Shown here: positions 15,961 through 29,681 of the stretch, piece by piece
How positions within the stretch are numbered: the first letter of the stretch is position 1
How the letters are laid out: the number at the start of each line of letters is the position of its first letter
Assembly: GCF_021462415.1 (NCBI RefSeq)
Contig: NZ_JAKEDS010000001.1
Location: 1,088,273-1,152,272 of the forward strand
Direction: 5' to 3'
Source of the DNA: Rhodohalobacter sp. 614A
GTDB taxonomy: Bacteria > Bacteroidota > Rhodothermia > Balneolales > Balneolaceae
DNA: 64,000 nt
Translations under genes and position numbers: made by a program
Notes under the pieces: generated by a model
Database searches by the model: none
What the model was told of the DNA's origin: nothing
What the model saw: only the letters and a program-made list of their open reading frames with translations

Positions 15961-17568
15961 TCATTCCCATTCATTCCAAAGATTAACGGGATTCAGTGAA
16001 CGGTCTACAACGACGCTGTCCGTGATTTGTGAATTTGTGACGCCGCACTGTCCGTCCGACCACGCGTGATTCATGGCTGGTGGATGACAGTTGTATTGAT
16101 CTCCGCATATCCAGTTTGCACGGTTTGGAGTGGATGAGTTGGCTCCCGTAAAAATGTGGGTAGCACAATTTCCAGGTGAATAATTTGCTGAATAAAAAGC
16201 CACATTGCTGGAATCCCAGGCAGTACTGTACATTTTGTTCGCTTCTACTTTGATATGATGCCCGCCGGCAATCCCGATTCCTACCTGCCCGGGATTTATG
16301 CCGATATTGCCAACCGCTTCCTGAAATCGGCCGCCGCCATCCCCAAGCATGATAAATGAACCAGAACCGGAAAGACTGTGGCCACGGGCACGATTGCGAT
16401 GAACCTGAATCCAGTCGGTACTGTCGCCGGCGGATTTGTAAATATTGATCCAGTCTTCCAGGGGATCGGCACCGTAAGGATCAGTGCGAATCATAGTATT
16501 TTCTGAAATTCGAATGCCGGACCCGGTGCACTCATCACACTGGAAAAAGTTGCGTCCCGTATTCAATCCTTCATTATTTACAACTTCCAGAGGCCCATCG
16601 CTGAAACGCAATCTTACGGCAGACGCCACATTTTTGAAATAGGATTCACGAATTCTTATATCTGACGCATTATCCAGCTGGATTGCCCCGTAATTTTGAC
16701 CCGAAGAATCCGGTGCTATATTGAGGAAGCGTCCTTTTCTGATGGTTACAGCAGATATTCCGCTGGTAGAAAAAATGCCGTGGAGGTGATAATTACGCAT
16801 CTCAATCCATCCAATTCTGTTTTGGTTGATTCCTCCGCTAAATGCCCTGTAAATGGAATCTTGTCCGTCCAGAACAGCTCCGCTCAGCCCCATCCACGAG
16901 TTGCCGGTTTTTGAAGTAAGCACAGATTGGCCGGTGTGAACTCCTCCACGAACGATAAACTTGCTTCCAGCGGGGCATGTGTAATTTGCAATGCTAAAGC
17001 TTTCGCCCATTCCAATCAGAACAAAATCACCCAGTTGATTGAACAAATTACTACAAGCTGATGATTCATCGGTATCAGAAGCCCAGTTTTTTAATATTTC
17101 GCGGATCTCCTGTGTGCTTTTTCGGCGTGGTCCGTCGGCAGATTCGGCTGACGAATTGAGAAGGTTTTCTATCCTGCGGCTGAGAATAGAATGTTCATTA
17201 TCGGTAAGTGAACTGAAATTTTTATCCAGTCTTTGCAGCGACTCAGACAATTGTTCAAGCGTTTCATCATCAAAATAGATGGTATTTGAGGTGGCAGTGC
17301 GGACCGGTGCACCCAATTCCAGCACATCTTCATCACTGAGGCTGTCAATTTCTGTGCTGTTCATGGATTCAACATCATCAATCATATCCAGAAAATCCGA
17401 ATAAAGATCCTGCGGAGTAGTAACCCCGGCTTTTTGTAAGATATTGGTATCCACCTTTTCGGCGGGAATATTTTTGTCTCTGTCATTTCGGATGCTGAAT
17501 TCGCAGGAAGCAGCTCCGGCCGCCATCACAAAAATAAGAGCATAGCTAAAAAGGAGAACTCTTCTCAT
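15961..17568 (-). CDS. Lipoprotein with right-handed beta-helix domain
   Basis: 535-aa predicted surface or periplasmic lipoprotein; lipobox AAGAASC with C22. Residues about 40-165 form a helical acidic region with MNSTEIDSLSDEDVLELG. From about 185 the sequence shows short repeating strands typical of a pectate-lyase-like parallel beta-helix (VLDGQDSIYRAFSGG, IEMRNYHLHGIFS, IRIRESYFKNVASAV, GIRISENTM). Paired cysteines (CDEC near 345, others near the C-terminus) may form disulfides. No catalytic residues of a polysaccharide lyase could be assigned, so it may bind rather than cut glycans. A full-length paralogue, broken by a stop codon, occurs at 24822-26438 on the other strand. Confidence 0.8.
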   Translation of the reverse strand: MRRVLLFSYALIFVMAAGAASCEFSIRNDRDKNIPAEKVDTNILQKAGVTTPQDLYSDFLDMIDDVESMNSTEIDSLSDEDVLELGAPVRTATSNTIYFDDETLEQLSESLQRLDKNFSSLTDNEHSILSRRIENLLNSSAESADGPRRKSTQEIREILKNWASDTDESSACSNLFNQLGDFVLIGMGESFSIANYTCPAGSKFIVRGGVHTGQSVLTSKTGNSWMGLSGAVLDGQDSIYRAFSGGINQNRIGWIEMRNYHLHGIFSTSGISAVTIRKGRFLNIAPDSSGQNYGAIQLDNASDIRIRESYFKNVASAVRLRFSDGPLEVVNNEGLNTGRNFFQCDECTGSGIRISENTMIRTDPYGADPLEDWINIYKSAGDSTDWIQVHRNRARGHSLSGSGSFIMLGDGGGRFQEAVGNIGINPGQVGIGIAGGHHIKVEANKMYSTAWDSSNVAFYSANYSPGNCATHIFTGANSSTPNRANWICGDQYNCHPPAMNHAWSDGQCGVTNSQITDSVVVDRSLNPVNLWNEWE

Positions 17569-24342: not shown

Positions 24343-24353
24343 TATTATTATTA

Positions 24354-24417
24354 GTCATTGCGAACGGAGTGAAGCCCCGAAGGGATCCCTACGGAACTTC
24401 ATTTCATTCGCAATGAC
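24354..24417. repeat. Short palindromic intergenic element
   Basis: GTCATTGCGAA at 24354-24364 is the exact reverse complement of TTCGCAATGAC at 24407-24417; the interior is partly self-complementary (GTGAAG with CTTCAT). This is the pattern of a REP/MITE-like non-coding repeat. The right end recurs in the two copies at 27851-27871 and, altered, at 29661-29681. Confidence 0.7.
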
Positions 24418-24827
24418 AAATTTAATGTAGAAATAGTCAGTATGGGTCCCTGTAACTTTTCGAAGTCCTGACAACGTTGTGAAATCCAGGAATTCAAACG
24501 ATGACAGGAGTACACTTGGTTCGTGCTCTGTCAGTTACTATCGAGATGTGGTGAGCAAATCTTTTAGAATTTTTGGTAACATTTTAGAAATTCATGTATC
24601 CTATTAGAAAGTAGTTTTCATCAAGATAATAGTCGTTCACGGGTACTCGGAATTCAAAAATTATTGATAACCTCCGTTCATCAGGAAGAAGTCTTTTCAA
24701 TTCTTTTATCTGTAAAAGGGAGGCAAAACTTGGTTAACTGATTGTTCGAATCATCATTACTCTATTATTTTTTTCTACTTTTGTAAAATTATACTATTTA
24801 TTGGCTAAGGAGGGTATGACTATGAAA
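24397..24827 (+). repeat. Leader repeat, copy 1 (direct repeat of 27851-28277)
   Basis: About 425 bp upstream of the broken beta-helix gene are repeated nearly base for base at 27851-28277 upstream of the second GLUG gene, including the start codon. Identity is high by eye, with scattered substitutions and a 4-bp length difference. The end carries AAGGAGGG about 7 bp before the ATG at 24822, a strong ribosome-binding site, and TACTTTTG at 24776-24783, a possible Bacteroidota -7 element. Apart from this repeat I see no gene in 24343-24821. Confidence 0.85.
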
Positions 24828-26438
24828 AAGAGAAAAATTATTCTCGCACTCGCAATTTTTATGATGACAGGGCTCCTGTTTTCATGTATTGAAAGTAATA
24901 TTGGGACAGTCAGAAGTGACGACTCTATTCTAACTGAGAATGTAATGGCAACCGCTGCAGAACAACAATTTAGAAGAGAATCACCCGAAAAAATATATAA
25001 AGACTTTCAAGAAATGTTAAGCAAACTTGAAAGTATGAATAGGACAGAAATAGATACCATGAGTGATGAGGAGGTCCTTGAGCTGGGGAAACCATTCCTC
25101 AACGCTTTTGAAAATACAGTAAAATTCGATAGAGAAACGTTGGAAAGGTTAAGTGAAGCCACCCGTGTTATGAATGAAAATCCGAAATCGATCACCAAAA
25201 AAATGCATAGTGAAACCGTAAAGGAGGTTGAGGATATTCTTTCATCATCGGCTTCAAAGTTTGAGAAACGCACCTTTGATACAAAAGGTTTACGAGGCCA
25301 CCTGACAAACATAACCGGAACAAGAGATATTATAGAGGATGTATTTGAATGTAGTGAATTTTTTAATGTGCAGGGAACTAACGTTTACCTTTACCATGGG
25401 GATGTTTTTGGACTTGCGAATGTTATCTGTCCGGCTGGTTCAACGTTCAATATCATTATCGGAACACATTATGGGCATATGATTGGTGATTCCAAAAATG
25501 GAAATATATGGATAGGATTGATGGCCGTTTTAGATGGTGGAGGATCCACAAAAAGAGCCTTTAAAGACGGGATGAATAATAATGTTATCAGTTGGTTGAC
25601 GATAAGAAATTACAGTCAGAATGGTATTGTCTCTGATGGAAGCGATAACGTTTCAATATCGTGGATGACGTTCAAAAACATTGCTCCTTCATATGATGGA
25701 GAAACTAACGGTGCGATTAATTTTGAAGATTCCCAATACATTTTTGTGAGGTATAATGAGTTTGAAAATGTGGCGGCAGGTGTACTGTTTACAGACTCTG
25801 AAGGTCCTTTATAAGTGATTAATAATGAAGCATTTAACAGTGGGCGAAATTTTTTTCAATGTAATAACTGTAATGGAGCAGGCATTCGAATTAACAGAAA
25901 TTCTATGGAACACACATCAGCTTATGGTAACACAAGCTTGGTAGATTTCATAAGTATTTTTAAATCAGAAGGAATAAGTAGTGATTGGATACAAGTAAAT
26001 AATAATCGGGCCAGAACAAATGGTACTGGAAGTGGGATGGATACCAATGGTTCTTTTATTATGTTAGGAGATTGGGGAGGTAAATATCAGGAGGCTAAAA
26101 ATAATATCGGTGTCAATCCGGGACAAGTAGGCATCGGAGCTGCAAGTGGTAATCATATAAGAGTCGAGGATAATCAGATGTACAGTCAGTTGATAGATGG
26201 CATTAGCAATGTGGCTTTTTATTCATGGAAAAATCCGATAGATGCTCCAAATTGTTCTAATCATATATATGAAAACAATATAGCTAATTGGATTTACGGA
26301 AAGCATGATCAACCAAATAATTATGGGAACCAAAATATAGCATGGTCTAATGGTAGTTGTGGCTTATCTCATCAGATCCTTCTTAGCAATACAGATGAAG
26401 ACACCACTATGGGACCCGAAATTTGGAATACATGGTGA
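24822..26438 (+). pseudogene. Beta-helix lipoprotein gene broken by an in-frame TAA
   Basis: Paralogue of the 535-aa lipoprotein at 15961-17568. The first part (330 codons from ATG 24822, lipobox TGLLFSC with C22) ends at TAA 25812-25814, and the same frame then continues open for 207 codons to 26438. The intact paralogue reads GPLEVVNNEG where this gene reads GPL-stop-VINNEA, so one GAA to TAA change explains the break. Conserved pieces before it include MNRTEIDTMSDEEVLELG, and after it SGRNFFQC and NPGQVGIG. Read through, the product would be about 538 aa, the same as the paralogue. Likely a recent nonsense mutation; a sequencing error or stop read-through cannot be excluded. The region is visibly more A+T-rich than its neighbours. 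Confidence 0.85.
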
Positions 26439-26443
26439 TAAAG

Positions 26444-27778
26444 ATGAAAAGAAAATTCACGTTAACTCTTCATTTTTTACTGTTCTTCTTATTTCTTTCT
26501 TGTATATCTAACTCGGATAGCCAATTTGAGGGAGGTTTGGGAACAGAAGAGAATCCATATCAAGTGGCCTCTGCCGAACAACTCCAGCGAATCGGAGATG
26601 AAGAAAATCTTGATAAACACTTTATCCAGGTGAAGGATATAGATGCCACTGAAACTTCTGACTTCAATGATGGAAAGGGATTCCTGCCGATTGGAAATAT
26701 CGGCAATCCCTTTCGTGGAAGTTATAACGGGAATGATTTTACTATCTCAGGTCTGGTATTGGATTATAATGAACCACACATGGGCTTGTTTGGATATGTA
26801 AAAAATAGCCTTATCGAGAATATAGTACTTATCAATTCTGATGACACGAATTGTAGTTTTGAAAAACTTCGAACAAAAGCTCTAAAACAAACAGGAAATA
26901 TGAATGCTTCCTATGATGTTAATATTCTCAATGATGACATCGGTGCCGCGGGTTGGCTTGTTGGTTATAATGATGAAGGAACAATTCGCAGTTCATCATC
27001 AACTGGATATTTTTCCGGGGAGGGTATTCGGTTTGTTGGTGGGCTCGTCGGCTATAATACGGGGCTTATTGAGAATTCTCATACTACCTCCCACAGCTCC
27101 AGTTTGGATGCAATCACTGGAGGATTTGTAGGAGGGAACACAGGTTTAATCAGAGATTCATATGCAACCGGTTGTGCAGCCTCATCTGGTACTGCGGGTG
27201 GCTTTGTTGGATATAACGATGGAGGAGAAATCTTGAATTCGTATGCAACAGGTGATACTTTTGCCAATTCAATTACGGGGGGACTGGTTGCTTTCAATCT
27301 CGCTGGAGGTAAGATTAAGGCTTCATTTTCCAGCGGTAAGATGATGGGAGTCGGTTCTGCTGCCGGTGGATTGGCAGGAATAAATCACGGCAAAATAGAA
27401 GACTCTTATACAATCAAAAACTTTAGTGAATTCACTCAAGCAACAGAAGTAGGCGGCATAGTGGGCATTAACAAAACAGATGGAACCATTATTACCTCCT
27501 ATTCAGCCGGTAAACTCGCAAGCGAGCCTGGCTCAACAATTGGTGGTGTTGCCGGTTTGAATGAAGGCGTGATTGAGTCGAGCTATTGGGATATGACTGC
27601 AACGGGTGTAAACATCGGAGCAGGCTACGGAAACGCAGATGGAATGATGGGGCTCCCGACAGACCAATTAATTGGCCCGACCGCACAGGAAAACATGTCC
27701 GGCTTTGATTGGTTGAATGTCTGGACAATCACTTCGGATGGATATCCTGTTTTGAGATGGCAGGAAGAGGAGAATTGA
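26444..27778 (+). CDS. GLUG-repeat lipoprotein 1
   Basis: 444-aa lipoprotein (lipobox FLFLSC, C20). The N-terminal 115 residues contain GGLGTEENPYQVASAEQL, usual before GLUG arrays, then repeated GLUG motifs of the type GGLVGYNTGLIENSHTT (about 200-390), and a C-terminal cap ending in WTITSDGYPVLRWQ. GLUG proteins in this phylum are surface adhesin- or beta-helix-like; the ligand is unknown. The frame opens at a TTG at 26423, but the ATG at 26444 matches its paralogue's start. The gene begins 5 bp after the broken beta-helix gene, so both once shared a transcript. The ends are almost identical to those of GLUG lipoprotein 2, whereas the middle differs strongly. Confidence 0.85.
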   Translation: MKRKFTLTLHFLLFFLFLSCISNSDSQFEGGLGTEENPYQVASAEQLQRIGDEENLDKHFIQVKDIDATETSDFNDGKGFLPIGNIGNPFRGSYNGNDFTISGLVLDYNEPHMGLFGYVKNSLIENIVLINSDDTNCSFEKLRTKALKQTGNMNASYDVNILNDDIGAAGWLVGYNDEGTIRSSSSTGYFSGEGIRFVGGLVGYNTGLIENSHTTSHSSSLDAITGGFVGGNTGLIRDSYATGCAASSGTAGGFVGYNDGGEILNSYATGDTFANSITGGLVAFNLAGGKIKASFSSGKMMGVGSAAGGLAGINHGKIEDSYTIKNFSEFTQATEVGGIVGINKTDGTIITSYSAGKLASEPGSTIGGVAGLNEGVIESSYWDMTATGVNIGAGYGNADGMMGLPTDQLIGPTAQENMSGFDWLNVWTITSDGYPVLRWQEEEN

Positions 27779-27780
27779 TC

Positions 27781-27871
27781 TCAGATTGGAGGCATTCGAT
27801 ATGCGAGCTCAGTACGTTCGAAGATTGTTCCAAGGGCATCCCTTTTGGGGCTTCATTTCATTCGCAATGAC
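27781..27871 (+). repeat. Tail repeat, copy 1 (direct repeat of 29591-29681)
   Basis: The 91 bp right after GLUG gene 1 match the 91 bp right after GLUG gene 2, both starting TCAGATTGGAGG and ending GCAATGAC. This shows that the duplicated unit includes the 3' flank. Its last 21 bp overlap the start of leader repeat copy 2. Confidence 0.8.
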
Positions 27872-28277
27872 AAATTTAATGTAGAAATAGTCAGTACGAG
27901 TCCCTGTAACTTTTCGACGTCCTGACAACGTTGTGAAATCCAGGAATTCAAACGATGACAGGAGTACACTTGGTTCATGCTCTGTCAGATACTATCGAGA
28001 TGTGGTGAGCAAATCTTTTAGATTTTTTGGTAACATTCTAGAAATTCATGTATCCTATTAGAAAGTAGTTTTCATCAAGATAATAGTCGTTCACGGGTAC
28101 TCGGAATTCAAAAATTATTGATAACCTCCGTTCATCAGAAAGAAGTCTTTTCAATTCTTTTATATGTAAAAGGGAGGCAAATATTGGTTAACTGATTATT
28201 GGGATTACCCTTACTCAATTATTCCTTTTCTACTTTTTAAAACTATACTATTGGTTAAGGAGGATAGGACTATGAAA
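27851..28277 (+). repeat. Leader repeat, copy 2 (direct repeat of 24397-24827)
   Basis: Second copy of the long leader, here placed directly before GLUG gene 2. It keeps the strong AAGGAGG ribosome-binding site, but TACTTTTG has become TACTTTTT. Together with the tail repeat it fills the whole 493-bp gap; no gene is seen in it. Confidence 0.85.
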
Positions 28278-29588
28278 AGAAAATTCACGTTAACTCTCCA
28301 TTTTTTACTGTTCTTCTTATTTCTTTCTTGTATATCTAACTCGGATAGCCAATTTGAGGGAGGTTTGGGAACAGAAGAGAATCCATATCAAGTGGCCTCT
28401 GCCGAACAACTCCAGCGAATCGGAGATGAAGAAAATCTTGATAAACACTTTATCCAGGTGAAGGATATAGATGCCACTGAAACTTCTGACTTCAATGATG
28501 GAAAGGGATTCCTGCCGATTGGAAATATCGGCAATCCCTTTCGTGGAAATTATAACGGGAATGATTTTACTATCTCAGATCTGGTATTGGATTATAATGA
28601 ACCACACATGGGTTTGTTTGGATACGTAAAAAATAGCCTTATCGAGAATGTATCACTTGTAAATTCAACATCTTCAAAAATTCGAAATACTCTGCAAAAG
28701 GTTCTACATGATACTATACAAATAAATGATACTTATTTGGTAAATCTTGCTTTAGAAGATATTCGTTCCGCCGGATGGCTGGTTGGATTTAATGACGGCG
28801 GTACTGTGCGAAGTTCATCTACCAGCGGAAGATTTGCTATTGAAGGAACTCATATTGGAGGACTTGTTGGCTTTAATGCCGGCAAGATTGATAATTCCTA
28901 TACCACCGGAAATGTATCCAGCCTTCAGGCATTTGTAGGTGGCTTGGTGGGGGGGAATATTGGGCAAATCAGTAATTCATATTCAACTGGTTCCGTTTCA
29001 GCACCTGGAAGCGCCGGTGGTCTGGTTGGACATAATAATGGAGGCCAAATTTCTACTTCCCACATCACGGGCCAAACAAGTGCAAATTCACGAGTTGGTG
29101 GATTAGTTGCTTTAAATACCGGGGGGCAAATTTATTCTTGTTATTCTATGGGTCAAATTCTGGGGTATGGCGAAACTACTGGAGGTTTGGTTGGAGAGAA
29201 CAGTGGAGAAATCAAAAACTCCTATTCGCTCATCGAATTTAATGAGTCGACTGAATCTGACAATGTGGGCGGCATAGTGGGTATCAACAAAACAGATGGA
29301 ACGATCATTACCTCCTATTCAGCCGGTAAACTCGCAAGCGAGCCTGGCTCAACAATTGGTGGTGTTGCCGGTTTGAATGAAGGCGTGATTGAATCGAGTT
29401 ATTGGGATATGACTGCAACGGGTGTAAACATTGGAACAGGTGCAGGGAGTACAGGTGGAATGATGGGGCTCCCGACAGACCAATTAATTGGCCCGACTGC
29501 CCGGGAAAACATGCCCGAGTTTAATTGGGTGGATGTCTGGACAATCACTTCGGATGGATATCCTGTTCTGAGATGGCAGGAGGAGTGA
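28272..29588 (+). CDS. GLUG-repeat lipoprotein 2
   Basis: 438-aa paralogue of the preceding GLUG lipoprotein, with the same lipobox (C20). Residues 1 to about 125 and the last 110 are nearly identical between the two, even at the DNA level. The middle (about 126-325) shares only the repeat pattern, here with cleaner GLUG motifs such as GGLVGFNAGKIDNSYTTG and GGLVGGNIGQISNSYSTG. The ATG at 28272 follows AAGGAGGATAGGACT, a strong ribosome-binding site. It is probably exposed on the outer membrane; function unknown. Its own leader repeat means it can be expressed separately from copy 1. Confidence 0.87.
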   Translation: MKRKFTLTLHFLLFFLFLSCISNSDSQFEGGLGTEENPYQVASAEQLQRIGDEENLDKHFIQVKDIDATETSDFNDGKGFLPIGNIGNPFRGNYNGNDFTISDLVLDYNEPHMGLFGYVKNSLIENVSLVNSTSSKIRNTLQKVLHDTIQINDTYLVNLALEDIRSAGWLVGFNDGGTVRSSSTSGRFAIEGTHIGGLVGFNAGKIDNSYTTGNVSSLQAFVGGLVGGNIGQISNSYSTGSVSAPGSAGGLVGHNNGGQISTSHITGQTSANSRVGGLVALNTGGQIYSCYSMGQILGYGETTGGLVGENSGEIKNSYSLIEFNESTESDNVGGIVGINKTDGTIITSYSAGKLASEPGSTIGGVAGLNEGVIESSYWDMTATGVNIGTGAGSTGGMMGLPTDQLIGPTARENMPEFNWVDVWTITSDGYPVLRWQEE

Positions 29589-29590
29589 TT

Positions 29591-29681
29591 TCAGATTGGA
29601 GGTATTCGATATGCGAACTCAGTACGTTCAGAGATTGCGCCAAAGGCATCCCTTTTGGGGCTTCGTTTTACTTGCAATGAC
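29591..29681 (+). repeat. Tail repeat, copy 2
   Basis: The 91-bp partner of 27781-27871, immediately after GLUG gene 2. It ends the duplicated islet; the convergent oxidoreductase gene stops at 29683. Confidence 0.8.

Follow-up and report, generated by a model that had tools for sequence, protein, structure and literature searches.

Near-identical ends and divergent middles in tandem GLUG-repeat genes of Rhodohalobacter sp. 614A: probable recombination between copies in the same genome

Two neighboring genes in a 64,000-nucleotide stretch of the Rhodohalobacter sp. 614A genome (the whole of which we call the window) encode GLUG-repeat proteins that agree closely at both ends and diverge in between. 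This arrangement raises the question of whether the ends have been homogenized, the middles have been replaced, or selection has simply held the ends constant. Both genes, here named A and B, were found exactly at the coordinates originally predicted (Table 1), and each exceeds the gathering score for PF07581 (73 bits versus 20.5). Gene A encodes a likely lipoprotein signal, an N-terminal cap, GLUG repeats at a spacing of 26 to 29 amino acids, and a C-terminal block. By inspection, its start runs from a hydrophobic stretch into FLSC (C20), an imperfect lipobox, and the product is likely a lipoprotein. AlphaFold models of both window sequences are poor (pLDDT 46, below fold-search quality), with a strand spacing that is solenoid-like. 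A sequence search of the PDB gave no useful match, and a scan of genome contigs returned only a distant match, from Clostridia. The signal and the solenoid-like repeats, together with analogy, lead us to infer that the middles of the GLUG proteins may be surface-exposed binders.

Table 1. Features of the A/B region (positions in the window)
Feature	Position	Strand	Length	Basis or remark
Leader U1, upstream of gene X	24397..24821	+		Core 96.7% identical to U2 (11/336 mismatches)
Gene X, secreted beta-helix-like protein	24822..26438	+		Weak Beta_helix match of intact paralog
Heptamer ATGAAAA at X start	24822..24828	+		Repeated at the starts of A (26444-26450) and B (28272-28278); marks the junction where copy 2 lacks X
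GLUG gene A	26444..27778	+	444 aa	ORF; Pfam PF07581 Glug E=1e-20; repeat positions
5′ block of A	26444..26821	+		98.7% identical to 28272-28649 of B; exact run 250 nt
Divergent middle of A	26822..27451	+		60% nt identity with B; saturation at silent sites
3′ block of A	27452..27769	+		Identity 91% with B and 79% with the third copy, C
Downstream flank of A, common with B	27779..27871	.		87% to 29589-29681; ends in REP-like half palindrome (..CTTCATTTCATTCGCAATGAC)
Leader U2, directly upstream of B	27851..28271	+		Homology to U1 runs on to ATGAAAA
GLUG gene B, tandem paralog of A	28272..29588	+	438 aa	ORF; Pfam Glug E=9e-21
5′ block of B	28272..28649	+		Codon-alignment segmentation
Divergent middle of B	28650..29267	+		60% nt to A, silent sites saturated
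3′ block of B	29268..29585	+		91% to A
Downstream flank of B, common with A	29589..29681	.		87% to 27779-27871

Stepped identity between genes A and B

The original prediction held that about 375 bp at the start and about 330 bp at the end of the two genes are near-identical, that the middles have only a repeat pattern in common, and that uniform drift would not produce such a profile. Optimal segmentation of the codon alignment agrees with the first of these statements. Sharp breakpoints fall at nucleotides 378 and 1008, which delimit a start block of 378 nt, a middle of 618 to 630 nt, and a 3′ block comprising the last 318 nt, and three segments are preferred over one (BIC 1112 versus 1374). 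Mismatches amount to 5/378 (1.3%) in nucleotides 1 to 378, 249/618 (40.3%) in nucleotides 379 to 1008, and 28/318 (8.8%) in nucleotides 1009 to 1326. Identity at four-fold-degenerate sites takes the same course (96%, 34%, and 86% in the 5′ block, middle, and 3′ block, respectively), as does dS (about 0.03, 1.6, and 0.23-0.27), and none of 100,000 shuffles reached the observed maximum of 38 consecutive identical four-fold sites. The statement about the middles did not hold: they are co-linear homologs with 50% amino acid identity, and the in-register score clearly tops every one-repeat shift.

The two ends differ from each other as well. The 5′ block carries proportionally fewer mismatches than the 3′ block (Fisher p = 3e-6), and the leader core fewer than the downstream flank (11/336 versus 12/92; Fisher p = 8e-4). 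Judged by these mismatch counts, the 5′ side of A and B would be younger than the 3′ side, and such an age gap is hard to attribute to a single event unless the replacement extended across the 3′ flank.

Copies in the genome and in the genus

A third short GLUG gene, C, lies on the minus strand 43 kb upstream of A (C1:1070214-1071527). Its 3′ block is 79% identical overall to those of A and B (86% in nucleotides and 77% at silent sites over 51 codons, with a peak of up to 87% in codons 346-375), and its middle matches theirs at only 54 to 58% of nucleotides. Homogenization has therefore reached a copy 43 kb away. The middles of A, B, and C are about equidistant (54-60% nt) and form one clade (support 98/97); they are about equally old, and the ends of A and B are young. 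Further middles between the same ends, for which the original prediction proposed a search of the genome, were absent: DNA and protein searches of this genome (99.3% complete) recovered A, B, and C as the only full copies and detected neither partial nor silent cassettes with the same ends, the remaining GLUG matches being longer, different proteins.

Short GLUG genes were also present in several of 28 genomes of the genus, a set in which the relatives are drafts and which permits comparison between species. In the ortholog pairs G008_95/G013_65 and G008_100/G013_174, the middles are 82 to 83% identical in nucleotides and four-fold identity is similar along the whole gene. Paralogs within G008 or G013 have middles only 46 to 48% identical and ends 61 to 74% identical (fixed segments), rising locally to 95% at the 5′ end in G013. 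The ortholog middles have a dN/dS of about 0.4 and thus do not point to diversifying selection at the scale of the gene. Related strains that all carry the same two middles had been named as an observation that would speak against exchange; the same two middle types do persist in G008 and G013, so this observation was made, though for species rather than for strains, and it counts against an active cassette system of variable antigens.

The 3′ ends evolve in concert, clustering by genome or species group. Regardless of middle type, genes of one genome have a four-fold identity of 0.61 in the last block and genes of one species group 0.63, versus 0.41 between groups; between different middle types, the middles reach 0.30 to 0.32. 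In the 3′ block tree all G011, G017, G020, and G019 genes are grouped (99/100), and the middle tree splits the same genes into ancient types. The N-terminal tree mostly tracks middle types, with G000 and G008_100/G002_190 as exceptions, and 5′ clustering by genome is clear in G000 only, so homogenization affects 3′ ends throughout and 5′ ends less consistently.

Several duplicated loci carry, between flanks that they share, middles of different ancient clades. A sister relationship of the middles is rejected by AU tests in G013 (p = 2e-6), in G011_31/73 (p = 4e-6), where the flanking gene X copies are about 90% identical, and in G002 (p = 2.5e-4), in which the middle of G002_190 forms a long branch. 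The G013 genes are apparently tandem (121-bp contig-end overlap) and, like A and B, share the leader, the 5′ end, and the 3′ end. Chimeric loci are seen between species in G011_31, in the N-terminus of G008_100, and in the G013 tandem. A TPR-like gene downstream of two G002 GLUG genes (L056:1-1311 and L057) is duplicated at 78 to 79% identity; the GLUG middles there are of different ancient types.

Middles that are typed across species, 3′ ends that sort by genome, and duplicated loci of mixed clades indicate that ends have been homogenized and middles moved. The original prediction had posed these as alternatives; across the genus both occur, as 3′ concerted evolution and as mixed middles (AU p = 2.5e-4 to 2e-6). 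We therefore think it probable that A and B are old tandem paralogs and that their family evolves through ectopic homologous recombination among the copies within one genome. By gene conversion and unequal crossing-over, presumably of the RecA type, the conserved leader, signal, and N-cap and the C-terminal block would be copied repeatedly between loci, because these end blocks are long and similar enough to recombine. The repeat-built middles would be too divergent for homogenization and would thus survive as separate types of great age, occasionally moving as a whole to another locus. Such exchange is likely slow, on an evolutionary scale rather than within a culture.

Local history and competing explanations

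Homology between the A and B loci extends beyond the genes, for about 92 bp downstream (87%) and for about 420 bp upstream of B. The leader before B matches the leader before gene X, not the sequence upstream of A, and the stop of gene X is 5 nt before the start of A. A copy of X immediately precedes GLUG genes on two contigs of G011 and in G002, and X also lies ahead of one in G008; given this adjacency in four species, the order of X and GLUG gene at A is probably ancestral. Parts of the downstream flank of A recur elsewhere in the genome. A REP-like palindrome at 24350-24421 (GTCATTGCGAACGGAGTGAAGCCCC...) lies at the left edge of the presumed duplicated unit, and pieces related to it follow A, follow B, and are present elsewhere in the genome. 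No contingency repeats or Rfam elements were found in the A/B region, nor any inverted repeats around A and B besides the REP-like sequences.

REP-like sequence at the ends of the downstream flanks and at the left edge of the leader suggests a route for the duplication. A unit of leader, X, GLUG gene, and flank may have been duplicated between REP-like sequences; X would then have been lost from copy 2 at the 7-bp repeat ATGAAAA, and the 5′ and 3′ exchanges would differ in age. Gene X contains an in-frame TAA at 25812-25814 and may be a pseudogene, or the stop may reflect a sequencing error; paralogs are intact at 15961-17568 (minus strand) and at L106, and the copy beside G011_31 is also interrupted. 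Two further paralog pairs lie in the window: 19040-19777/19808-20548 has no high-identity ends (43-75% along the gene), and 35820-37508/40217-41842 is about 71% identical over 1.5 kb.

Considered by themselves, A and B are explained nearly as well by a recent duplication and the replacement of one middle as by recurrent exchange. Under the former explanation, a recent tandem duplication of leader, X, and GLUG gene was followed by one event in which the middle of one copy, perhaps with its 3′ end, was replaced by that of a divergent paralog. U1 and U2 are homologous although U1 precedes X, which puts the leaders out of register for A-B conversion, and the junctions resemble those of a duplicated unit. 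Comparable replacement is seen in G011_31 and G002_190. However, the middles of A, B, and C form one clade of about equal age, the genome lacks a donor copy, and the 3′ block is homogenized in C too, which calls for separate events at that end at least. We consider such a single replacement possible but unlikely. Purifying selection alone, with constrained ends and a freely drifting middle, has almost no chance of being the explanation. Across the family, the amino acids of the end blocks are more conserved than the rest of the protein, and purifying selection accordingly explains some of the similarity of these blocks, mainly in the C-terminal block between species. As the sole cause it is contradicted by silent sites and by the noncoding leader: four-fold identity between A and B is high in the ends and low in the middle, ortholog pairs keep similar four-fold identity along the gene, and the leader core is 97% identical.

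The original prediction also raised a variable surface antigen cassette, and an active system of this kind, like those of msp2, vlsE, and pilE, would draw on a reservoir to exchange middles often while cultures grow. The exact identical runs of 250 and 86 nt in the shared flanks could support recombination now, and the predicted solenoid-like middle would sit in a probable surface lipoprotein. Nevertheless, this explanation is very unlikely, since the 99.3% complete genome holds three full copies without partial, silent, or extra middles, two species retain the same pair of middle types (dN/dS about 0.4), contingency repeats are absent, and the inverted repeats near A and B are only REP-like. 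Silent-cassette systems, in which conversion acts on a variable middle between conserved ends, need donor copies (PMC4534519); these are absent here. A diversity-generating retroelement also seems doubtful: the middle differs at 40% of sites, and a template copy is lacking.

Silent-site GC content and known systems

Recurrent exchange between copies might also leave a mark on base composition. In 18 of 18 short GLUG genes of the genus, four-fold GC is higher in the last 60 codons than in the middle (mean +0.30), ranging from 0.43 to 0.82 at the 3′ end and from 0.28 to 0.55 in the middle of the same genes; the same contrast in 36 control ORFs of the genome studied here is -0.03 (s.d. 0.12). After amino acid matching, it is +0.31 to +0.32 in other species and +0.10 in G000. 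The contrast is weak in A and B, and silent GC is not raised in their recently converted 5′ block. Among homologous C-terminal blocks, the contrast is +0.29 where the genome also holds a close paralog (n = 15) and +0.07 where it does not (n = 23; p = 2e-4), a comparison that is confounded because the close-paralog genes mostly belong to one subfamily. Raised four-fold GC was noted in the C-terminal blocks at 27452-27769 and 29268-29585 and in that of L005:8215-9528, and is usually absent from homologous blocks without a close paralog.

This pattern fits GC-biased gene conversion and is treated as a lead. That conversion of the 3′ block is GC-biased, pushing the converted end to high silent GC, is a tentative proposal that we hold to be rather doubtful. 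Recombining stretches of bacterial genomes have been found to be GC-richer independently of selection on codon usage (PMC4450053), and one study reported that bacteria lack such a bias (PMC8153448). Unlike in the former work, the contrast here lies within single genes and one protein domain family. If the proposal is true, the family would contain its own test of whether bacterial gene conversion is biased toward GC, with the converted end and the unconverted middle of the same genes as a controlled setting for this disputed question.

Conserved ends flanking a variable middle recall Anaplasma msp2, Borrelia vlsE, and Neisseria pilE; unlike those systems, this family has no silent donors or single expression site, and its middles are old and conserved between species. 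The closer likeness is to babA/babB/babC of Helicobacter pylori (also homA/homB and sabA/sabB), which have near-identical N and C ends and a divergent middle. The 3′ segments of the bab genes are closer within a strain and their middles closer between strains (PMC3960876), and bab chimeras swap 5′ regions (PMC4552749). The same relation is found here at the level of species, with middles alike between genomes by type and 3′ ends alike within a genome, and exchange is seen between species rather than between strains. The H. pylori genes code for adhesins in the outer membrane of a gastric pathogen and undergo phase variation through CT repeats, whereas the present genes encode probable GLUG-repeat lipoproteins and no contingency repeat was found. 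In the library searched, two papers mention the GLUG motif, and their titles and abstracts do not deal with end homogenization in this family. The finding carries over to GLUG-repeat proteins a pattern familiar chiefly from a human pathogen; in these proteins the shared ends can serve as anchors for moving repeat-built middles between loci.
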